From: Desulfatitalea sp. BRH_c12
GTDB taxonomy: Bacteria; Desulfobacterota; Desulfobacteria; Desulfobacterales; Desulfosarcinaceae
DNA length: 64,000 nucleotides
Assembly (NCBI GenBank): GCA_000961655.1
Contig: LADR01000010.1
Span: 62,001-126,000 of the forward strand
Reading direction: 5' to 3'
This document shows, piece after piece, positions 3,193-16,535 of the stretch. A program made the position numbers and the translations under genes. Position 1 is the first letter of the stretch, and each line of letters opens with the position of its first letter. Under the pieces are notes generated by a model. It was given only the letters and a program-made list of their open reading frames with translations, ran no database searches and was not told the DNA's origin.

Positions 3193-5007
3193 TTACTTGG
3201 CGCCGAAGCTCTCGTCATCCATCTCGATGGCCGAGCAGCAGTTGTCCATGATGGTCTCGATTTTGCCATGCGTGATCGGCAGCACGTTGCGGACGTAGAA
3301 AGTGGCCGATTTGATCTGGCCGTCCAGGAATTTTTCGTCTTTTTTACGGGTGCCTTTGGCCAGCAGATCGGAGGCGATCGAAGCCCTCCACAGCAGCATC
3401 CAAGCCATGATCGCGTCGCCGAGCACTTCCATGAAGGTATAAGCAAAAGCGAAAGTGTTTTCAACCTGTCCCGTCATCAGGTTTTTGCCCAGAAACATCG
3501 CCACATCGCCCAACTTTTTGAGCAGTGCTTCGGCTTTTTCCACCAATGGCTTCAACGGTTCAAACGTTTTGGCCTGGTCGAAGGTTTTCTGCATTTCGGC
3601 CGCCAGTGCCATCATGGCTTTGCCTCCGTCCATGACCGTTTTGCGTCCGAGCAGATCCATGGCCTGAATACCATTGGTGCCTTCGTAGATCATGGTGATG
3701 CGACAGTCGCGCACCAACTGCTCCTGCGGGAACTCCTTTATAAACCCGTACCCGCCGTACACCTGCATGCCAAGATTACACACATCATAGGCACGGTCGG
3801 TGACATACCCCTTGCAGATCGGGGTCAGATACCCGATCAATGCTTCGTAGGTGGCTTTTTCGGCCGGATCTTTGGCAATATGGGATTTGTCGATAAGCAG
3901 GGAAACGTAGTAAAGCAGGCTGCGCATGCCTTCCACGTTGGCTTTCATGGTCATCAGCATGCGGCGGACGTCGGGATGCTGGATGATCGGCACCGCGGGG
4001 GCGTCTTTGGCAGTCGCCGTGATGTTGCGGCCCTGAACGCGATCGCGGGCATAGTTGAGAGCATTGAGGTAAGAGCTGCTGGCGCAGGCAAAGCCCTGTG
4101 CGCCGGTGTGCAGGCGCGCGCCGTTCATCATCAGGAACATGGCGCGCATGCCCTTGTTCTCTTCGCCCAGCAGATAGCCGCGGCATTGGCCTTTGCCACC
4201 CAGCGTCAAGGAAGCGGTGGCATTGCCGTGGATGCCCATTTTCTCTTCGATGCCGGTGCAGACCACATCGTTGAACTCACCGAGGCTGCCGTCATCATTT
4301 ACCCAGATTTTGGGAACCAGGAAAAGGGAGATCCCCTTGGTGCCTTCCGGCGCGCCTTCGATGCGGGCCAAGGTCGGATGGATGATGTTATCGGACAGAT
4401 CGTGTTCGCCGGAGGAGATAAAAATTTTATTGCCGCTGATTGAATAGGTGCCATCCGGATTTTTAACCGCCGAGGTGGTCAGGCGACCGACGTCCGAACC
4501 GGCTTCCGGCTCGGTCAGCAGCATGGTGCCGGTCCATTCGCCGGAGTTCATCTTTTTCAGAAAAAGCTTCTTCAGCTTGTCCGTGCCAAAATTTTCAATC
4601 AAAGAAGCCGCGCCGTTGGTCAAGCCGGTGTACATCATAAAGGAAAAGTTGGCGCCGCAGAAATAGTCGCCGGCGGCCATGGCGACAAGATGGGGCATGC
4701 CCTGCCCACCCCATTCGGGATTGACATGCGTTGCGACCCATTCGCCTTCTTTGAACAGATCCCAGGCACGTTTGAAACTATCCGGTGTAGTCACCTTGCC
4801 ATTATCAAAACGGCAACCGATTTCATCGCCATCTTTCTGAGTGGGCAAAATCTCCTTGATTGCCAGATTGCGTGCTTCGGTAACGATCAATTCGATGGTT
4901 TTGCGGTTGAATTCCGCAAAATGGGGATCTTTGCTCAAACTATCCACGTTGAGCTGGTCGAAAAGAACAAAATCGACATCTTTGCGTTCAGCTATCACCT
5001 GTGCCAT
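3193..5007 (-). CDS. Acyl-CoA dehydrogenase with C-terminal extension
   Basis: This FAD enzyme (604 aa) introduces the alpha-beta double bond into acyl-CoA and gives the electrons to ETF. Its length and C-terminal helical domain (about residues 470-600) place it in the long DmdC/FadE-like branch rather than the roughly 380-aa short/medium-chain type. The LLTEPEAGSD segment near 165 and the catalytic glutamate E442 in IYEGTNGIQ are intact. A clear AGGAG precedes the ATG. It lies 21 bp downstream of the TetR regulator on the same strand, so the two likely form an operon controlled by the operator at 5709. The natural substrate (fatty, aromatic or methylmercapto acyl-CoA) is not decidable from sequence. 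Confidence 0.9.
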   Translation of the reverse strand: MAQVIAERKDVDFVLFDQLNVDSLSKDPHFAEFNRKTIELIVTEARNLAIKEILPTQKDGDEIGCRFDNGKVTTPDSFKRAWDLFKEGEWVATHVNPEWGGQGMPHLVAMAAGDYFCGANFSFMMYTGLTNGAASLIENFGTDKLKKLFLKKMNSGEWTGTMLLTEPEAGSDVGRLTTSAVKNPDGTYSISGNKIFISSGEHDLSDNIIHPTLARIEGAPEGTKGISLFLVPKIWVNDDGSLGEFNDVVCTGIEEKMGIHGNATASLTLGGKGQCRGYLLGEENKGMRAMFLMMNGARLHTGAQGFACASSSYLNALNYARDRVQGRNITATAKDAPAVPIIQHPDVRRMLMTMKANVEGMRSLLYYVSLLIDKSHIAKDPAEKATYEALIGYLTPICKGYVTDRAYDVCNLGMQVYGGYGFIKEFPQEQLVRDCRITMIYEGTNGIQAMDLLGRKTVMDGGKAMMALAAEMQKTFDQAKTFEPLKPLVEKAEALLKKLGDVAMFLGKNLMTGQVENTFAFAYTFMEVLGDAIMAWMLLWRASIASDLLAKGTRKKDEKFLDGQIKSATFYVRNVLPITHGKIETIMDNCCSAIEMDDESFGAK

Positions 5008-5028
5008 TTAAAAATTCTCCTTTTTCTT

Positions 5029-5685
5029 CTATGTCATGTCACCGCAATGATTCACTAACTGCTGCAGTGCTTGGTTGCCGGTGTCGTGCTGCCCTTTGGG
5101 CGTTCCGATGCCGTTTATGAACAGTTCCACCAACGGTTCGGCCATGGCGGCCAGATCATGGTCGCGCCCCGTGTGAATCCATGTGTTGATCACCTCTTCG
5201 ACGGCGCCGTTGATCAGGCGCTTGACCAGTCCGACATACAGATCGCCGCGGATGGTGCCCTCATCCTGGCCGAGGGCCACGATTTTAGAGATCACATCGC
5301 GATACATTTTGGACATCTGACGCGTCGGCTCCTGAACCAGGCGCCATTGCAAATGGGTCTCGCCCTGGTATACGATAGCCCCATTGGGTTCCTTCTGGAA
5401 CAGTTCCAGATGGGCGTGTATCAGGTTGTGCAGTTTCTCCAGGGCGGTCTGCCCTTGTTGCACCGCTTCCCAGAAACGAATGGACACATGTTCAGTCATG
5501 CGCTCGTAGAACTGAACCAGAATATCGTCCTTGTTCTTGAAATAGAGATAGATCGTGCCGTCCGCAACGCCGGCTTCCTGTGCGATCTGACTGATGGTGG
5601 ATTGCGAAAACCCTCTCTCGGCAAACACCTTGATCGCCGCGGTGAGTATCTGATGGTACTTGTCCGAGTTGCGTTTCACAGCCAA
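5029..5685 (-). CDS. TetR-family regulator, FadR-like
   Basis: This repressor (218 aa) has an N-terminal TetR helix-turn-helix (about residues 10-58; ILTAAIKVFAERGFSQSTISQIA, then GTIYLYFKNKDD) and a ligand-binding helical domain. FadR proteins of this group release DNA on binding long-chain acyl-CoA. It is first in a two-gene operon with an acyl-CoA dehydrogenase. A FadR-like palindrome lies 24 bp upstream of its start codon and overlaps its own -10, so autoregulation is likely. The second perfect copy at 990 links it to the Fe-S oxidoreductase and fadD region. The acyl-CoA ligand is inferred from the operator sequence and the neighbours. Confidence 0.88.
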   Translation of the reverse strand: MAVKRNSDKYHQILTAAIKVFAERGFSQSTISQIAQEAGVADGTIYLYFKNKDDILVQFYERMTEHVSIRFWEAVQQGQTALEKLHNLIHAHLELFQKEPNGAIVYQGETHLQWRLVQEPTRQMSKMYRDVISKIVALGQDEGTIRGDLYVGLVKRLINGAVEEVINTWIHTGRDHDLAAMAEPLVELFINGIGTPKGQHDTGNQALQQLVNHCGDMT

Positions 5686-5708
5686 GTCAAAGGCCCTCTT
5701 TTAAGAAA

Positions 5709-5726
5709 TGAATGAACATTCACTCA
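5709..5726. promoter_or_regulatory. FadR-type operator, autoregulatory
   Basis: TGAATGAACATTCACTCA differs from a perfect 7-4-7 palindrome by one base. It touches the -10 element of the tetR promoter. Confidence 0.7.
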
Positions 5727-5754
5727 TTTATCAAAGGCCTTTTCGCACTGTCAA
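5726..5754 (-). promoter_or_regulatory. Promoter of the tetR-acyl-CoA dehydrogenase operon
   Basis: On the minus strand TTGACA (5754-5749), a 17-nt spacer and ATAAAT (5731-5726), directly followed by the operator. Confidence 0.65.
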
Positions 5755-5839
5755 GGATTTTATAAAATGGCCAGAAAAAAACGCGGGCCGACAACTTTCC
5801 ATTTTCATTTCCACTTTCCACTTTTATATGCCATATCTA

Positions 5840-5868
5840 TTGACACGACCTCTCTAATCCGTTTAGAT
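5840..5868 (+). promoter_or_regulatory. Candidate promoter of the Hdr-like selenoprotein gene
   Basis: TTGACA (5840-5845), 17 nt, then TTAGAT (5863-5868), about 150 nt before the ATG at 6018. Apart from this and the tetR promoter, the 5686-6017 gap shows only A/T-rich sequence with 'ctttccactt'-type low-complexity motifs. Confidence 0.35.
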
Positions 5869-6017
5869 AGGTTCCCTTGATACGATAACGACGCCACCTG
5901 TGTGCAAAGGATAGCGAGAAGCCGTTTCATACTCGTTTTTGCGTTCGTAAGTTCGTTAATGGCTGAGGCCACTCGGATTCAACTGAGATAGGTATTAACT
6001 TTTGGAGGTTTTGTTAA

Positions 6018-7337
6018 ATGGCTGAACAAGCAATCAAACTTGGCGGCAAAAAACAGAGCACCTTCATCGACAAGGTCAAGGGGTTGCTTCCCGAAGGCGG
6101 GAATCTAAACCTCTGCCTGACCTGCGGTGCGTGCTCGTCGGGTTGCCCGGCCACCGGCTTGGAAGGCATGGACCCGCGCAAATTCCTGCGCATGGCCGCC
6201 CTGGGGATGGATGAAGAGGTCACCTCGACGCCCTGGGTGTGGATGTGCAGCATGTGCACGCGCTGCGTCTATGTTTGCCCCATGAAAATCAACATCCCGC
6301 AACTGGTGTTCTACGCGCGCCAGGCCTGGCCGCGGGAAACGCGGCCCAAAGGCATCCTGGGGTCTTGCGACATGGCCCTGCGCAATGACACCTGCAGCGC
6401 AATGGGGGCCACCGAAGAGGATTTTCAGTTCGTGGTCGAGGATGTTCTGGGAGAGTACCAGGAAGCTCAACCCGAGTTCGCCGAGATGGAAGCCCCTGTG
6501 AATAAAAAGGGCGCAACCTATTTTCTCAATCAGAACTCACGCGAACCGGTCACCGAACCGGATGAAATGGTGCCGCTCTGGAAAATCCTGCACCTGGCCG
6601 GTGCCGACTGGACCTACGGCACCAAAGGATGGGCGGCTGAAAACTACTGCCTGTTCCTGGCCGACGATCCCAACTGGGAAAAGATCGTCCGGACCAAAGT
6701 CAAGGCCGTCGAGGACCTTGGCTGCAAGGTCTGGCTCAACACGGAGTGAGGGCACGAACTTTTCGCGGTCCGGTTCGGACTGCAAAAATTCAAGATTCCT
6801 CACAACTTCGAAATCAAAAGCATCATTCAACTCTATGCCGAATGGATTCGCGAAGGTAAGCTGAAGCCCAGCTCGGAGTGGAACAAAGAACGCAAGATCA
6901 AGTTCACCCTGCAGGACCCCTGTCAGCTGGTGCGCAAAACCTACGGCGACCCGGTGGCCGAGGAGATGCGTTACGTCGTCAAAGCTGTCGTGGGTGAAGA
7001 GAATTTCATCGACATGTACCCCAACCGCTCCAACAACTTTTGCTGCGGCGGCGGCGGCGGGTATCTGCAATCGGGCTACGCAGAACAACGGCGCGAATAT
7101 GGTACGATGAAGGCCAATCAGATCCTGGCCACCGGCGCCCAGTACTGCATCACGCCCTGCCATAATTGTCACGCTCAGGTTCACGATCTGGCCGAAGTGC
7201 GCGACCATGCCTGGCAGACCGTCCATCTGTGGACCTTGCTGTGCCTGTCTTTGGGCATCCTGGGTCCCAACGAGCGTGCCTATCTGGGCGACGACTTGAA
7301 AGACGTGGACGTGTTCCACCCGGAAAGCGAAATGTAA
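6018..7337 (+). CDS. HdrD/GlpC-like Fe-S oxidoreductase, predicted selenoprotein (UGA at 6747-6749)
   Basis: Read through one in-frame UGA, this gives a 439-aa protein with Sec at residue 244. The N-terminus has two [4Fe-4S] motifs (C33, C36, C39, C43 and C77, C80, C83, C87). The C-terminus has one complete CCG domain, C302-x39-C342-C343-x37-C381-x2-C384, of the type that binds the non-cubane cluster in heterodisulfide reductase. The UGA replaces the residue before Gly-His in a Thr-Glu-x-Gly-His motif where relatives appear to carry Cys (from memory). Both halves are in the same frame and the joined length suits the family. The ATG has GGAGG 9 nt upstream. No HdrA, ETF or membrane partner is adjacent, so donor and acceptor are unknown; thiol/disulfide or ETF-linked electron transfer is inferred. 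Confidence 0.82.
6750..6783 (+). promoter_or_regulatory. Candidate SECIS hairpin of the Hdr-like gene
   Basis: GCGGTCC (6765-6771) pairs with GGACTGC (6777-6783), leaving the 5-nt loop GGTTC. The loop begins 22 nt after the UGA, within the usual bacterial SECIS distance, and has the GGU motif recognised by SelB. Confidence 0.65.
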
Positions 7338-7365
7338 TTTATCTCGCTTGATCAAAGAGATCCTG

Positions 7366-7398
7366 AACCGGCAGCACCCAGGTGCTGCCGGTTTTTTT
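7366..7398 (+). terminator. Terminator after the Hdr-like gene
   Basis: A 13-bp perfect stem AACCGGCAGCACC/GGTGCTGCCGGTT (7366-7378, 7381-7393) followed by a T run. Confidence 0.9.
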
Positions 7399-7442
7399 AT
7401 TCCAAAACCTCCATGCAAACCTCCTTCATTCAATGAACCTTA

Positions 7443-8395
7443 GTGTCAAAAACCGATGTTTGCGGGAAATAGCGGTGGGCAATGCCCACCCTACACTCTG
7501 AAAAAATTCAGGGCAATCGCATGTCAAAAACTCTCTCAGGATACCCGAATTCGTATGCGGGATTTGGCACGGGGGAGGTGATTCGGGCGGTGCGGTGCGC
7601 CACGTCAGCAGGTAGCAGGTAGGGTGGGCATCGCCCACCATTGTCTTATGTCGATCACCTCTGTTTGATTGGCCGTATTCAACGTTTCATTGCTGTGTTC
7701 TATCGGGTGTCCCTCCAATCGCTTGCGGGATCAGTATCACAAACCGATGATGTTTTTTGCGGGAAATAGCGGTGGGCAATGCCCACCCTACATTCTGAAA
7801 GAATTCAGGACAATCGCTCTCTCGGGATACCCGAATTCGTTTTCGGGATTGGCACGGAGGAGGTGATTCGGGTGGTTGGTCCGCGCCACGTCAGCCATGA
7901 GATTTAAAGATGTAGGGTGGGCATCGCCCACCATTGTCTTATGTCGATCACCTCTGTTGATTGGCCGTATTCAACGTTTCATTGCTGTGTTCTATCGGGT
8001 GTCCCTCCAATCGCTTGCGGGATCAGTATCACAAACCGATGATGTTGTTTGCGGGAAATAGCGGTGGGCAATGCCCACCCTATATTCTGAAAGAATTCAG
8101 GACAATCGCTCTCTCGGGATACCCGAATTCGTTTTCGGGATTGGCACGGAGGAGGTGATTCGGGTGGTTGGTCCGCGCCACGTCAGCCATGAGATTTAAA
8201 GATGTAGGGTGGGCATCGCCCACCATTGTCTTATGTCGATCACCTCTGTTGATTGGCCGTATTCAACGTTTCATTGCTGTGTTCTATCGGGTGTCCCTCC
8301 AATCGCTTGCGGGATCAGTATCACAAACCGATGATGTTTTTTGCGGGAAATAGCGGTGGGCAATGCCCACCCTATATTCTGAAAGAATTCAGCTG
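7443..8395 (+). repeat. Tandem array of a palindrome-ended element (292-bp period)
   Basis: Three copies of a 171-173 bp element (7619-7791, 7912-8082, 8204-8374) and a truncated right end (7443-7492) alternate with near-identical 120-bp flanks (7792-7911, 8083-8203; an older diverged one at 7493-7618). Each element begins GTAGGGTGGGCATCGCCCAC and ends with its inverse. Short reading frames inside it repeat with the array and have no coding support. The rest of 7338-8517 holds only a terminator and, at about 8499-8506, the AGGAGAGG ribosome site of the next gene. Confidence 0.9.
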
Positions 8396-8517
8396 CCCTT
8401 GCCTTTGAAGAAAAGAGTTGTTAGTGTGGCCGGCACTTTTTGGAACCAGGATGGCACCGCCAGTGGGTTGCCATGCAAATTGGCGCATAGTCGAACATAG
8501 GAGAGGAAAACAGATAC

Positions 8518-11367
8518 ATGATGATTTTACGCGTGGATATGAGCAGAGAAAGTGTCGATCTGCAAGCCATTCCGAAAGAGTGGGCCTATATCGGCGGCAG
8601 TGCCTTGACCGCCAGGATCATGAACCGGGAAGTGCCCCCCATGTGCGATCCCTTGGGGCCCGATAACCGCTTGATCGTCGCCGGCGGCCCCTTGGCCGGG
8701 ACCCAGGCCCCTCAACTAGGCCGGATTTCGGTGGGTGCCAAAAGTCCGTTGACATTGGGCATCAAAGAGGCCAACTCGGGCGGTCCGGTGGCCCAGATGC
8801 TCGATCGGCTCGGCATCCGCGCAATTGTCGTACAGGGGGCACCCGCGGCAGGTCGCTTGTACTGCCTTCATATCGCGAAGGACACAGTCAAACTGGTTTC
8901 CGCCGGTGACTACCGCGGCATGAAAAACTATGCACTGGTTGACAGTCTGCGTAAAACACACGGTGAAAAAATCGGCGTTGTCTGCATCGGCATTGCCGGA
9001 GAACGCCTCTACCGTGGTGCATCGGTTTCCTTTACGGATATTTTCGGCGACCCGTCCCGCAACGCTGCCCGCGGCGGGTTGGGCGCCGTGATGGGCGCCA
9101 AGGGCTTAAAGGCCATCATCGTCGATGATGCCGGCACCGCACCGGTGGCCTTGCATGATGCCAACGCCTTTCGGGATGTTGTCAAAAACTGGGTAACGGT
9201 GCTCAAACACGATGTAGGCTGCAGTTTGTACTCACGCTTCGGCACCCCGTTCGCGGTGAACAATTCGGCCAGCCACGCCAGCTTACCCTCCCGGAATTAT
9301 CGATCGGGTTGCCCGGAAGATTTCATTGCCGTCAGCGGCGACAGCATCCAGAAAATCATGTTCGAACGCGGCGGCAAGATGCATGGATGCATGCCCGGCT
9401 GCTTCGTGCGCTGCTCGATCATCTATCCGGACAAAGACGGCAACCGCATCTGCTCCGCCTACGAGTACGAAATCATCGGGCTGCTCGGTACCAACCTGGG
9501 GATCACCGACAACGATGCCATCGCCCGTCTTAAATTCATGTGCGACGATTTGGGCATCGATGCCATCGAAGCGGGCAGCGGCTTGGGCGTTGCCGCTGAA
9601 GCGGGCAAAATGGGCATGGGGGACGGGCAGGCAGCCGCACGCCTGCTCGAAGAGATCGAACATGAAACCCCCCTGGGGGTTGCCCTGGGTAACGGCGTGG
9701 TGGCTACGGCCAAATACCTCGGCGTCGACCGGGTGCCCGCCTTTAAAGGGCAGGCATTTCCGGCCCACGACCCGCGCTCGGTCAAGGGCACCGGCGTAAC
9801 CTATTTTTCAAGCCCGATGGGCGCCGACCACACTGCCGGATTGACCTACAGCCAACCTGCCCAAAAGGAAAACCAAGCCTATTATTCGCTTCGGACCCAG
9901 GTTCAAGCAGCCACCTGCGACGCTTTCGGCTACTGCCTGAATGCCGTGCCGGGCAAGGCATCCATTTACGCCTTTTTCGCGGATTTGATGAACGCCCGCT
10001 ACGGGGTCGCACTGAGCCCCCAAGACGTGCTGGAGATTGGCAAGCAGACCTTGCGCGATCAGCTCGCTTTCAATGAGGGTGCCGAATTCAGCCAATCAGG
10101 TTCACAAGACGCCGCCTTTGTGCGCCAGGAGCCGATTGCGCCGACCGGCCAAGTCTTTGATGTCGATGACACCGACGTCAAGACGATATGGAAAGGGCTG
10201 GACACTTTCAAAGAGAAAGAAAAGGCGTGGGAAGTGCGCATCCCACCCTTGCCTGACGTGTTGTTCGGCGCCGGTGTGGCCAGGAACATGGCCGCCCGCA
10301 TCCGCCGGTACAACGTCCAAAAAGCACTGCTGGTCACCGATCCCTTCATGGCTGCCAGCGGCCGGGCCGATGAAGTCGCTCAAATCCTTAGAAAAGGCGG
10401 CATCGAAACCGTGCTATTTTCGGAGGTGGAACCCGATCCACCGATCGCGCTGATCGAACGCACCAGCGGCCTCTATAAGGAGAATGGTTGCGACGGCATT
10501 ATCGGTCTGGGCGGCGGTAGTTCCATGGATACCGCCAAGATTATTGCCCTGCGCGTATCGCATCCCGGGGAATTGCGCGAGTATGAAAGCATCCTGGGCG
10601 GCGGTGCAAAAATCAAACCGATCATGCCGCCGGTCATCTGCATCCCGACCAGTTCGGGCACCGGCAGCGAAGCCAATTCCTGCGCGGTCGTGACCGATAC
10701 GGCCCGCGATATGAAGATCGTGCTGATGGCCAATCCCATGACACCCAAATTGGCGGTCATCGATCCGCTCTTTTGCAAAACCATGCCGCCGGCCCTGACC
10801 GTCCAGTCGGGTATCGACGCTCTGGCGCACTGCTGCGAAGGCTACGTATCGCTGGCCACTGAATACAATCCCTATTTCGAATCCAAGGCACTGTATGCCG
10901 TCAAGCTGATCGGGCGGAGCCTGCCCCGCGCGTATAAAGATGGCAACGATATCGCGGCGCGTACCGACATGTGTATGGCCGCCATGTTCGGCGGCATCTC
11001 TATCGTCAAAGGCTTGTGTTCAGGTCATGCCCTGGCCCATGTCCTGGGCGGCGTGTACCACATGCCCCACGGCCGGGCAGTGGTCTATGGCCTGATGTTC
11101 TTCGTCAAAGCCAACAAAGAGGCCTGCCGGGAACAGTTCGCCGATATTGCCCAGATGCTGGCGCGCTCCGACGATCTCGAAGCCTGCCTGACCGAATTCT
11201 ACAAAAAACTCGATATCACGATTAGTCTTAAAAACGAGGGAATTCCTAAGGAGGCGCTGCGGAAAATCGCCTTCCTGACCTCACGGGATGCGGTCAACCT
11301 GGCCACCGATCCGGCCTCGCCAAGCGAAAAGAAAATCCTGGAACTGCTCGAGCAGATGTACGCGTAA
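8518..11367 (+). CDS. Aldehyde ferredoxin oxidoreductase fused to iron-dependent alcohol dehydrogenase
   Basis: A single 949-aa frame carries two enzymes. Residues 1-565 are a full AOR: N-terminal tungstopterin domain (IGGSAL, then RNAARGGLGAVMGAKGLKAI at 181-200) and the [4Fe-4S] cysteines C291, C295, C299 in HGCMPGCFVRCS, with a fourth among C467/C473. Residues 575-949 are a complete group III Fe-ADH: nucleotide motif GGGSSMD (665-671), PTSSGTGSEA (710-719), and metal ligands D767, H771, H837, H851 with family spacing. Known reactions are carboxylate/aldehyde interconversion with ferredoxin and aldehyde/alcohol interconversion with NAD(P)H, so the fusion could convert acids to alcohols or the reverse without releasing the aldehyde. 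The coupling is inferred. It stands alone between a repeat array and the phosphate genes; no small AOR Fe-S subunit is adjacent. Confidence 0.93.
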   Translation: MMILRVDMSRESVDLQAIPKEWAYIGGSALTARIMNREVPPMCDPLGPDNRLIVAGGPLAGTQAPQLGRISVGAKSPLTLGIKEANSGGPVAQMLDRLGIRAIVVQGAPAAGRLYCLHIAKDTVKLVSAGDYRGMKNYALVDSLRKTHGEKIGVVCIGIAGERLYRGASVSFTDIFGDPSRNAARGGLGAVMGAKGLKAIIVDDAGTAPVALHDANAFRDVVKNWVTVLKHDVGCSLYSRFGTPFAVNNSASHASLPSRNYRSGCPEDFIAVSGDSIQKIMFERGGKMHGCMPGCFVRCSIIYPDKDGNRICSAYEYEIIGLLGTNLGITDNDAIARLKFMCDDLGIDAIEAGSGLGVAAEAGKMGMGDGQAAARLLEEIEHETPLGVALGNGVVATAKYLGVDRVPAFKGQAFPAHDPRSVKGTGVTYFSSPMGADHTAGLTYSQPAQKENQAYYSLRTQVQAATCDAFGYCLNAVPGKASIYAFFADLMNARYGVALSPQDVLEIGKQTLRDQLAFNEGAEFSQSGSQDAAFVRQEPIAPTGQVFDVDDTDVKTIWKGLDTFKEKEKAWEVRIPPLPDVLFGAGVARNMAARIRRYNVQKALLVTDPFMAASGRADEVAQILRKGGIETVLFSEVEPDPPIALIERTSGLYKENGCDGIIGLGGGSSMDTAKIIALRVSHPGELREYESILGGGAKIKPIMPPVICIPTSSGTGSEANSCAVVTDTARDMKIVLMANPMTPKLAVIDPLFCKTMPPALTVQSGIDALAHCCEGYVSLATEYNPYFESKALYAVKLIGRSLPRAYKDGNDIAARTDMCMAAMFGGISIVKGLCSGHALAHVLGGVYHMPHGRAVVYGLMFFVKANKEACREQFADIAQMLARSDDLEACLTEFYKKLDITISLKNEGIPKEALRKIAFLTSRDAVNLATDPASPSEKKILELLEQMYA

Positions 11368-13333: not shown

Positions 13334-13655
13334 CTTTGAGCCTGCTGCGCTGTCGGAAATTGTCGTCGATCATATCACCAGGGGCGCGGCTGGGTTACCC
13401 GAGCAAACACAGGCACCCCTGACAGTTTCGCAATGCCCCGCGGGGGCGGGAATGCGGCACCTTACCAAGGATTGTTTCGCACTGCAATCAAAGAGGGCAT
13501 CCCTCACAACCATGCTGCAAAGCGTGTAATGACGATGGCTTCCTGAAAACACGACGACACGAAAAACAAAAGGGACCCGCATTGCACAAGAAAGGCCGCC
13601 CTGTATGGGGCGGCCTTTGATGTATTCGGATGAAGGAATCTTCAGCCGATCCCTA
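13334..13655. other. Intergenic region between pit and fdhA
   Basis: Apart from the fdhA terminator hairpin at 13591-13618, no supported gene is seen. The part next to 13333 should contain the pit promoter, but no clear -35/-10 pair was recognised. Confidence 0.4.
13591..13618 (-). terminator. Terminator of fdhA
   Basis: A 10-bp stem AAAGGCCGCC/GGCGGCCTTT with an 8-nt loop, 38 nt past the fdhA stop. The T tract on the minus strand is short and interrupted. Confidence 0.7.
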
Positions 13656-16421
13656 TCAGGCGGCCTTGTTGATTTTAACCGCGCACACCTTGTATTCGGG
13701 AATACCCGAAACCGGATCGAGGGCCGCGTTGGTCAGTTTGTTGGCCGCACCTTGCGCAAAATGGAAGGGGATGAAGACCGTGCCATCAACGGCTTTGTCC
13801 CCGATTTGCACTTGTACGTCGATTTTTCCGCGCCGGGAGGTGATCGAAACATGATCGCCATCCTTCAACCCGTATGTCCGTGCATCGCGACGCGAGACTT
13901 CCACGTAAGAATGCGGCGCCCGGTTATTCAGATCGTCGCTCTTCATGGTCATGGTGCCCGTATGATACTGGTAGAGCACGCGGCCGGTTGTCAAATAGAG
14001 CGGATAGTCTTCATCGACCTGTTCGGCCGGCGGAATCCACTCGATCGCATGGAACTTACCTTTGCCGCGGGTGAACTGCTGGCCATGCAGGATGGGTGTA
14101 CCCGGGTGTTCGGTGGTCGGACACGGCCAATGCATCCCTTCATTTGCGATACGGTCGTAAGTGATGCCGGCATATGAGGGCGTTACCTTGACCACCTCTT
14201 CGAAGATGGCGCGGCTGTCCGCGTACTGCATGGGGACACCCATGCGGGTGGCCACCGCACACGTGATCCACCAGTCGTCCTTGCATCGGCCGGGCGGGGT
14301 CACTGCCTGGCGCACGCGTTGCACGCGCCGCTCGGTATTGGAAAAGGTACCCTCTTTTTCGGCAAAGCAGGCCGAAGGCAGCACCACGTCGGCCAGTTGG
14401 GCCGTTTCGGTCATAAAGATGTCTTGGACCACCAGAAAATCAAGATGCTTGAAACTCTTTTCGGCATGGTTCAGATCCGGGTCCGACATCAAAGGGTTTT
14501 CGCCGATGATGTACAGGGCTTTAATGTCCCCGTCATGGGCCTTGGGGACCATTTCGGTCACCTTCAACCCCGGCTGGGTCGGCAGTCCGGATACGCCCCA
14601 GGCCTCCTCCATCTTTTTGGCGATAGCCAGATCGCTGACGGACTGGTAAGCGGTGTAGACGTTGGGCAGGCCGCCCATGTCGCAGGCACCCTGTACGTTG
14701 TTCTGGCCGCGCAGCGGGTTGACGCCCCCGCCGGGAATGCCGAGATTGCCGGTCAGCATTGCCAGATTGGCCAGCGACTTCACGTTGTCGGTGCCGCTGA
14801 CATGCTGGGTAATGCCCATACAGTAAAGAATGCTGCCGGCTTTGGCCGTGGCGAACAGCCGGGCGGCGGTGATCAGACTCTCGGACGAAATGCCGGTCAC
14901 GCCCTCGACGAACTCTGGGGTGTATTTTTCGACCTGTTTCTTGAGTTCTTCAAACCCTTCGGTGCGGTTCTGGATGAAGGCGTCATCCTGCAAGCCTTCT
15001 TTGATGATCACGTGCATCATGCCGTTGATCCAGGCCACGTCGGTGCCCAGGTTGGGCCTTAGCCAGTGTTCGGCGAACTCGGTCATCTTGATGCGGCGCG
15101 GATCCACCACAATCACCTTGGCGCCCTTGAACTTGACGGCCCGTTTGACAAAAGTGGAAAGCACCGGATGGTTTTCAGTGGTATTGGACCCGGTGACCAG
15201 GATCACATCGGCGTCTTCAATATCGGCGATGGTGTTGGTCATTGCGCCCGAACCAAATGCTGCGGCCAGACCGGCCACGGTGGAGCTATGTCAAAGCCGG
15301 GCACAATGGTCCACGTTGTTGGTCTTGAGCACCGCCCGGGCAAACTTCTGGGCAATGTAGTTCTCCTCGTTGGTGATGCGCGCCGAGGTCAGCACGCCGA
15401 TGCTGTCGCCGCCGTGGGCGTCACGAATCTGCGTGAGCCGGCCGGCCACCAGGTCCAGGGCTTCATCCCAGCTCGCTTTGCGGAAAGTACCGTTCTCTTT
15501 GATCAGCGGATCGGTCAGGCGCTCGGGCGAACTGACGAAATGGTAGCCGAAACGGCCCTTGACGCACAGACTGCCATGGTTGGGCGCCACGTCGGCGCCG
15601 GTCACCTTGACCACCTGGTTGTCATTGACGTGCAGGTAGAGTTGACAGCCCACGCCGCAGTAGCTGCAGGTGGTGCGCACTTTTTCGGTTTCCCAGGGGC
15701 GCACCGTGTAGCGCACATCTTTTTCCACCAGGGCGCCAACCGGGCAGGCCTGCACGCACTCGCCGCAGAAGACGCAATCAGAGTCCTTCAACGGCCGGTC
15801 GCCGGCGGCAATGATTTTGGATTCCGGACCGCGATAGCCGAAGCTGATGGCATTGTTGACCTGGACATCATTGCAGGCCTGAACGCAGCGCCCACACTGG
15901 ATGCACCGCGAAAAATCGCGAACGATGAAGGGATTGACGGTTTCCATCGGGTAACGCGTCGGGGTGGCGGCAAAACGTTCGCCACTGACCTGGTAGCGGT
16001 AAGCCAGGTCCTGCAAGCGGCAGTCGCCCCACACCGGGCACAGCTCATCGCTGCCATCCTCGCCCTGCACTTTGAGTTGAAAGGCGGTCCATTCCTGGTC
16101 GTCGCTGCCGCGCACCGCGCAATTATGATTGCCCGAACTGAGCAGTAATTGGATGATCAGCCGCCGGGCTTCGATGACAGCGGGTGACTCGGTCTGCACT
16201 TTCATGCCTGACGCGGCCGGCGTGGCGCACGAGGCCAGCAGGGTCCGCGCGCCCTCGACCTCCACGACGCAGATGCGGCAGGCCCCTGTAGGGGTCGTCC
16301 CTTTGAGATGGCAGAGGGTCGGTATGTCGATGTGGTGTTGGCGAGCCACTTCCAGAATGGTCTGGCCGCTTTGGAAACTCACATCGTGGCCGTTGATGGA
16401 AAGGGTTTGCTGTGCATTCAT
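13656..16421 (-). CDS. fdhA: Formate dehydrogenase alpha subunit, selenoprotein (UGA at 15293-15291)
   Basis: Joined across one in-frame UGA, this is a 921-aa molybdo/tungstopterin enzyme with Sec377 in the context CARL-U-HSSTVAGL, the exact active-site position of Sec140 in E. coli FdhF. The N-terminus is NuoG-like: [2Fe-2S] cysteines C37, C48, C51, C65, then two [4Fe-4S] motifs around C173-C183 and C216-C226, then the cofactor-proximal cluster C252, C255, C259, C286. This layout matches NAD(P)-linked or electron-bifurcating FDHs such as Moorella FdhA. The start is taken at the ATG at 16421 because AAGGAG lies 11 nt upstream; an upstream in-frame start at 16517 lacks one. NuoE/NuoF-like partner genes are absent nearby. 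With fhs in the same window it supports the methyl branch of the Wood-Ljungdahl pathway. Confidence 0.95.
15262..15290 (-). promoter_or_regulatory. SECIS element of fdhA
   Basis: On the minus strand GTGGCC (15278-15273) pairs with GGCCGC (15267-15262), exposing the loop GGTCT, the same apical loop as E. coli fdhF. The loop begins 18 nt after the UGA. Confidence 0.85.
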
Positions 16422-16535
16422 GCCGGCGTTCGCTCCTTGGAATAAGGTCCCGCAGTGAAACATAAAACTGGTGCGGTCTGGTCGATTCCTTCTATATAAG
16501 TCCGGGGCTTTTGTCAATGCGGGGAATTGTTCTTA

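Follow-up and report, generated by a model that had tools for sequence, protein, structure and literature searches.

An aldehyde ferredoxin oxidoreductase fused to an iron-containing alcohol dehydrogenase in Desulfatitalea sp. BRH_c12 and other Desulfobacterota-type bacteria

Introduction

Acids and alcohols are connected by a known route, the AOR-ADH pathway of Thermoanaerobacter and other anaerobes, in which an aldehyde ferredoxin oxidoreductase (AOR) and an alcohol dehydrogenase (ADH) act in sequence as separate proteins (excerpts of PMC10816221). AOR and ADH have been studied as two enzymes for the production of alcohols from acids, and a 2025 review states that alcohols from the acids of Syntrophus-type syntrophs would require AOR and ADH genes to be inserted or found by screening (excerpts of PMC12096430). 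Here we describe a gene in a 64,000-nucleotide stretch of the Desulfatitalea sp. BRH_c12 genome (contig LADR01000010.1, positions 62,001 to 126,000; hereafter the window) that encodes an AOR fused to an iron-containing ADH (Fe-ADH). It would place the same chemistry in sequence on one chain, as a natural one-chain form of the pathway in Desulfobacterota-type bacteria.

AdhE resembles this fusion in uniting a two-step aldehyde/alcohol conversion in a single polypeptide and in ending with an Fe-ADH of the same family (Foldseek alignments of the fusion to 6sci and 3zdr show ~30% identity). The N-terminal half of AdhE is a CoA-acylating aldehyde dehydrogenase, whereas that of the fusion is an AOR, which would take the acid without CoA and use a pterin-metal and Fe-S site in place of NAD. 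No CoA-acylating aldehyde dehydrogenase domain was among the fusion's Pfam matches, the NCBIfam AdhE model matched only the ADH part (459-857 of 872), and the whole-chain overlay with the AdhE spirosome 8uhw was poor (TM 0.38-0.42). With AORs such as those of P. furiosus (1aor) and C. autoethanogenum (9g7j), among others, the fusion shares both Pfam domains, four cluster cysteines and T243/E318/H438. It differs from AORs such as 1aor in a CX3CX3C motif, the exchange of Tyr427 for His, a short C-terminus and the attached Fe-ADH; the first three traits are common to the fusion and its unfused sister AORs. In C. kluyveri and in the dicarboxylate/4-hydroxybutyrate cycle, enzymes of the Fe-ADH family catalyse the 4-hydroxybutyrate step, which is followed by 4-hydroxybutyryl-CoA dehydratase.

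One uninterrupted frame encodes an AOR and an Fe-ADH

The single ATG-to-TAA frame of 949 codons that the initial annotation had reported at 8518-11367 of the window is there, and its parts are as follows.

8518..11367, + strand: AOR-Fe-ADH fusion gene, 949 codons plus TAA (Pfam; aligned with the 26 intact copies)
8518..10212, + strand: AOR half, residues 1-565, with AFOR_N at 3-204 and AFOR_C at 222-520 (Pfam; unfused sister AORs end at the matching place)
10213..10254, + strand: linker, residues 566-579 (gap between Pfam matches; length identical in L005, the nearest relative, by codon-by-codon comparison)
10255..11364, + strand: Fe-ADH half, residues 580-949 (Pfam; PDB sequence matches)

All four Pfam matches exceeded their curated cut-offs: AFOR_N with 204 bits (cut-off 29.8), AFOR_C with 155 bits (cut-off 27; profile positions 3-324 of 385), Fe-ADH at residues 580-750 with 162 bits and ADH_Fe_C at residues 761-948 with 133 bits. 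A truncated AOR half, conceivable from the early end of the AFOR_C match, was rejected, as short AORs without an ADH stop there as well. An AlphaFold2 model of the fusion (29 sequences) reached a mean pLDDT of 81.9 and a pTM of 0.73; Foldseek matched its AOR half to 9g7j and 1aor (TM 0.79 and 0.80 by target length) and its ADH half to the methanol dehydrogenase 8zwd (TM 0.89 by target). The window's genome (91 contigs, 98% complete) holds four AFOR_C genes, only one of which, the present one, is fused. No account of an AOR-Fe-ADH fusion was found in the open-licence literature, in a search limited to one open-access library.

Both active sites are retained

The residues of interest in the AOR half are listed first.

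9388..9414, + strand: C291, C295 and C299 (CX3CX3C), probable [4Fe-4S] cysteines; 26/26 fusions
9469..9471, + strand: E318, counterpart of P. furiosus AOR Glu313 (1aor alignment; 26/26; role in excerpts of PMC12096430)
9766..9768, + strand: H417, replacing P. furiosus AOR Tyr427; 26/26 fusions
9829..9831, + strand: H438, counterpart of P. furiosus AOR His448 (1aor alignment; relatives)
9934..9936, + strand: C473, probable fourth cluster ligand, aligned with 1aor Cys494; 26/26

We take Cys494 to be the number of the cluster ligand in 1aor. The cluster motif is CX3CX3C in the fusion versus CX2CX3C in the aligned 1aor. Of the cysteines named initially, C291, C295, C299 and C473 are invariant in the 26 fusions; C467, which had been paired with C473, is a cysteine in 26/26 fusions and 0/40 unfused rows; it is confined to the fused clade among the rows compared, and the fourth ligand is probably C473. 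The second shell of AOR comprises Thr243, Glu313, Tyr427 and His448 (excerpts of PMC12096430), three of which are matched by T243, E318 and H438, invariant in the fusions. The Tyr427 position is His in 26/26 fusions and in the 6/6 nearest unfused AORs versus Tyr in 30/30 other short AORs, and the same exchange is known from C. formicoaceticum AOR and from WOR5/ASOR (excerpts of PMC12096430). The fusion's N-terminal half has both AFOR domains and the four [4Fe-4S] cysteines of the AOR/WOR family, with 3/4 of the second-shell residues kept.

In the ADH half, two sites stand out.

10510..10539, + strand: GGGSSMDTAK, residues 665-674; G665, G666, G667, S668, D671 and K674 invariant in 26 fusions
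10816..11070, + strand: metal ligands D767, H771, H837 and H851 (plus invariant H841); invariant in 26 fusions

We take GGGSSMDTAK to be the nucleotide-binding motif, and D767, H771, H837 and H851 to be the ligands of the Fe-ADH metal. The latter site had been recognized in full from the window alone, and its invariance, to which H841 adds a further residue, agrees with that. The Fe-ADH and C-terminal domains, the Asp/His/His/His site and the GGGS motif of iron-containing ADHs are thus all present. Together, the Pfam matches, the 1aor alignment and the invariant ligands bear out the initial proposal of a true AOR and Fe-ADH fusion with an AdhE-like layout and both active sites retained.

Profile matches assigned the ADH half less sharply, and no NCBIfam model reached its cut-off on the fusion protein. 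The choline dehydrogenase and ErcA models came out on top for this half with 255 bits each (ErcA 254.6, cut-off 550), the 4-hydroxybutyrate dehydrogenase model was third with 236 bits (below its cut-off of 500), and the best PDB scores went to methanol dehydrogenases. As ErcA is an ‘alcohol dehydrogenase-like regulatory protein’, its place among the best matches could be taken to mean that one half of the fusion has lost its catalytic activity and has a scaffolding or regulatory role instead. We consider this highly improbable: the metal- and nucleotide-site residues are invariant in the 26 copies, and dN between the window and L005 is equal in both halves (AOR half, dN 0.135 and dS 1.15; ADH half, dN 0.135 and dS 1.10). 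The 35-codon junction, in genes of equal length, gave a dN of 0.20 with saturated dS.

The fusion recurs in 25 genomes

A scan of one genome per species returned 35 loci: 30 of the fused type, one unfused AOR (L034), two unfused ADHs (L036 and L037) and two with separate AOR and ADH genes (L038 and L039). The fused-type records are metagenome-assembled genomes (MAGs) filed as Syntrophaceae, Smithella/Smithellaceae, Syntrophales, Desulfobacteraceae, Desulfobacterales, Deltaproteobacteria or Proteobacteria, and one (L032), filed as Dehalococcoidia, may be misbinned. Relatives filed as Syntrophaceae and Smithellaceae thus already carry AOR and ADH, in fused form. The gene is intact at 21 of the 30 loci (22 genes, as L015 holds a tandem pair) and not intact at nine, where it is cut off by contig ends (L025, L031, L032), hits a contig end and is broken in frame as well (L035), begins at residue 183 (L022), is broken in frame (L027, L028, L033) or, in L029 (7986-10112), lacks residues 1-116 and 740-857 and hence the ADH metal site. 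The L029 gene, possibly decaying or misassembled, is preceded by a second AOR gene (622 aa) and by one that looks, by eye, like a CoA transferase. In the Syntrophaceae MAG of L015, the intact tandem copies lie at 4986-7835 and 8001-10850.

Among 395 sampled genomes of the phylum, 18 had matches at E <= 1e-180: 13 of the fused type and five with an unfused AOR (50-55% identity). Three of the 13 are incomplete (G122, G348 and G414; the gene starts at a contig end in G122 and has a stop near residue 803 in G414), and three intact copies were new (G076, G171 and G048). Altogether, 22 genes at 21 scan loci, these three and the window make 26 intact genes from 25 genomes, 948-951 aa long and 56-79% identical to the window's. 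In the window's family, the fusion is present in 2/30 genomes.

The initial annotation had named a missed stop or frameshift near codons 565-575, or absence of the architecture from every related genome, as grounds for refutation. None of the 26 intact copies has such a lesion, and the architecture recurs. Because these copies, from 25 genomes, are open across the junction, the fusion is no sequencing error. Adjoining unfused AOR and Fe-ADH genes do exist, for instance in L068 (6 bases apart), and two such genes might in principle have been joined through a sequencing or assembly error; against this stand the number of intact copies, the equal junction length in the window and L005, and the distribution of close ADH-half homologues (E <= 1e-65; at most four candidates scored per genome), found in 14/395 genomes that comprise the 13 fused-type ones and a contig-edge fragment (G251). 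An artefact is therefore vanishingly improbable, and we regard the frameshift, missed-stop and joined-gene versions as refuted by recurrence in 25 genomes. The fused architecture is real and conserved, and is a new combination of known parts.

The ADH was appended to a complete short AOR

In an AOR tree of 67 sequences (midpoint-rooted for drawing; the program warned of long branches among the distant rows), the 26 fused AOR halves and the degraded L029 copy form one clade (support 100/99). Its closest neighbours in the tree are five unfused sister AORs, which it joins with a support of 100/96, and L034 branches next (100/99). These sister AORs (L082-L086) are 560-568 aa long, and their C-termini fall within a few residues of the start of the ADH; therefore, the AOR half is complete, with the ADH appended to a whole AOR. 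As far as the AOR half shows, the fusion has a single origin, in which an Fe-ADH was joined once to a short AOR at its natural C-terminus.

By raw count, 7/36 unfused AOR loci have an Fe-ADH gene in the flanking DNA retrieved (about 1.5 kb for most), and the AOR/Fe-ADH pair therefore exists in unfused form too. Two of the three other AORs in the window's genome have an adjoining Fe-ADH gene. On contig C84 of that genome (L114, 6781-9706), the Fe-ADH ends 40 bp before the AOR, an unfused version of the pair. L038, from an Oscillospiraceae MAG, likewise has an AOR gene (6512-8431) followed by an Fe-ADH-containing gene (8706-10358), but there the Fe-ADH is fused to a polyferredoxin and not to the AOR, another way of tying both activities.

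A predicted carboxylate/primary-alcohol enzyme

We think it probable that the protein is bifunctional and interconverts a carboxylate and a primary alcohol in two steps on a single polypeptide; our best guess at its substrates is succinate, succinic semialdehyde and 4-hydroxybutyrate. The wider class, a predicted acid/aldehyde/alcohol enzyme working with ferredoxin plus NAD(H), is well supported. The AOR half, with a W- or Mo-bispterin and one [4Fe-4S] cluster, would interconvert carboxylate and aldehyde with reduced ferredoxin or a similar low-potential Fe-S carrier, and the Fe-ADH half would interconvert aldehyde and alcohol with NADH. The fusion would keep the reactive aldehyde near both sites, such that, whichever way the enzyme runs, its unfavourable step is drawn along by the other step. 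We infer the activities, carriers, proximity effect and substrate; the fusion makes aldehyde channelling between the tungsten site and the iron site testable.

‘Acid to alcohol’ is just one of two possible directions. Alcohol oxidation with NAD+ is uphill as long as the aldehyde is not drawn off immediately. Acid reduction is hard under the same condition, because the acid/aldehyde couple has a potential of -520 to -560 mV (excerpts of PMC10816221), and sulfate reducers and syntrophs may therefore run the enzyme oxidatively, the direction towards which we lean.

Neighbouring genes and the substrate

A close homologue of 4-hydroxybutyryl-CoA dehydratase is encoded directly upstream of the fusion in L011, L012, L015 (before the first of the two tandem genes), L016, L017, L019 and L026. 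The L026 protein matched 1u8v with E 1.4e-231 and 772 bits, and the CFQRC and HRQSYGGC motifs are common to both; 1u8v is named ‘gamma-aminobutyrate metabolism dehydratase/isomerase’, which we take to be 4-hydroxybutyryl-CoA dehydratase. Matches to 4-hydroxyphenylacetate hydroxylases were 8e-38 or weaker, and NCBIfam gave only models of that kind, far below cut-off. The other six upstream genes are 93-96% identical to the L026 homologue, and in L016 dehydratase homologue and fusion overlap by ATGA. Seven of the 25 genomes with intact fusions, the window's not among them, thus have this neighbour, a lower bound because some loci have short flanks.

This adjacency, the strongest pointer to the substrate and one visible solely in relatives, suggests, with moderate confidence, succinate, succinic semialdehyde and 4-hydroxybutyrate as substrates. 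The fusion could then connect the succinate pool with crotonyl-CoA via 4-hydroxybutyryl-CoA dehydratase. Unlike in the 4-hydroxybutyrate dehydrogenase/succinyl-CoA reductase route, the AOR would, if this were proven, replace the CoA-dependent succinic semialdehyde step and act on free succinate, a new CoA-free link between succinate and 4-hydroxybutyrate. Dehydratase genes also go with the fusion across genomes (12/13 fused-type genomes versus 92/382 others; Fisher p 7e-7, confounded by ancestry), and the window's genome encodes two close homologues elsewhere (67% and 58% identity). The third place of the 4-hydroxybutyrate dehydrogenase model for the ADH half also speaks for this reading.

Several observations weigh against this reading. 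Members of the dehydratase family are widespread across the phylum (104/395 genomes at E <= 1e-120, paralogues included); as the family is also carried by 5/5 sister-AOR genomes and 12/28 unfused genomes of the window's family, its link with the fusion perhaps reflects ancestry or lifestyle. The fusions with a dehydratase neighbour make up one subclade of the AOR tree, and in L026 a terminator-like hairpin (by eye) separates the two genes. The window's own neighbours, which lack the dehydratase, carry no pointer to 4-hydroxybutyrate. The choline dehydrogenase and ErcA models outscore that for 4-hydroxybutyrate dehydrogenase, all three being far below their cut-offs. For the proposed enzyme as a whole, a further weakness is that the structural model drops below pLDDT 50 at residues 290-298, 405-428 and 435-447, in the cysteine loop and around the W site.

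The wider gene surroundings speak partly for succinate and partly for other explanations. Thiolases, a 611-aa acyl-CoA dehydrogenase and a thiamine pyrophosphate (TPP)-dependent enzyme are encoded close by in several dehydratase-type loci. In favour of the succinate reading, in L009, L013, L014 and L018, SucC/SucD-like and Na+-decarboxylase-like genes lie upstream and the same 611-aa type of acyl-CoA dehydrogenase downstream; enoyl-CoA hydratase-like genes follow in L009, L014 and L018, and succinate-dehydrogenase-like genes are present in L009 and L014 (identities were checked for the SucC, decarboxylase and hydratase of L014, and the other genes of these four loci were recognized by eye). 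Such acyl-CoA dehydrogenases, thiolases and enoyl-CoA hydratases would suit many acids, and they fit a broad-specificity AdhE analogue, in line with the acid-to-alcohol view of the initial annotation. Such an enzyme would dispose of electrons by reducing fatty or aromatic acids to alcohols with reduced ferredoxin and NADH, and would have nothing to do with 4-hydroxybutyrate. An AOR-ADH pathway with broad AORs is known (excerpts of PMC10816221 and PMC12096430), and the methanol dehydrogenases at the top of the PDB scores are in keeping with this view. However, sulfate reducers and syntrophs would have difficulty in driving a couple at such low potential, and the adjoining dehydratase gene in seven genomes points to a narrower role; we consider a broad enzyme possible, if doubtful.

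A protective role, in which the AOR half oxidizes leaked aldehydes or the ADH half reduces them without carrying flux, would be in line with the lack of a clear pathway operon around the gene in the window and L005, with the patchy distribution in the window's family, and with the TPP-dependent enzymes near the fusion in L011, L015 and L026, which are of the acetolactate synthase large subunit type (NCBIfam) and could conceivably supply aldehydes. Yet the fusion clusters with acyl-CoA metabolism genes in several relatives, and scavenging needs no fusion, which makes this explanation an unlikely one. The unfused sister AOR of G038 (L111, 8688-13044) is followed by a TPP-dependent enzyme, which shares 23% identity with the one found close to some fusions and is a possible different source of aldehyde, and by a small protein that resembles a ferredoxin by eye.

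An upstream Fe-S gene and other features of the window

Two further features lie upstream of the fusion gene.

6018..7337, + strand: HmcF/TmcB/DsrK-like Fe-S protein (Fer4 and CCG); codon 244 is an in-frame TGA, as in L005
7459..8392, + strand: 292-bp tandem repeats, 3.2 copies, 94% matching, between the Fe-S gene and the fusion; short ORFs only

The Fe-S protein is probably a selenoprotein, with TGA read as selenocysteine, since a hairpin follows the TGA in both the window and L005 (z -2.1 and -2.25). A frameshifted gene was rejected, as there is one frame with TGA at the same codon in L005. The distance to the fusion is 120 bp in L005 and about 1.2 kb in the window, and the full gene was found in 2/32 sources searched, namely these two. 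We regard its product as a candidate electron partner of the fusion in both.

The most specific version of the succinate reading is a dedicated one-chain succinate:4-hydroxybutyrate oxidoreductase that works with ferredoxin and NAD(H). It would use succinate as the free acid, with no CoA activation, and connect the succinate pool with that of crotonyl-CoA in syntrophic and sulfate-reducing bacteria; in the lineage of the window, it might hand its low-potential electrons to the selenocysteine HmcF/TmcB-like Fe-S protein. We offer this version tentatively, and in all its detail it is rather unlikely to hold.

Elsewhere in the window, an in-frame TGA also occurs at 13653-16517 (- strand), within HCARLUHSSTVAGL of a formate-dehydrogenase-like protein (by eye) that is presumably an ordinary selenocysteine formate dehydrogenase.

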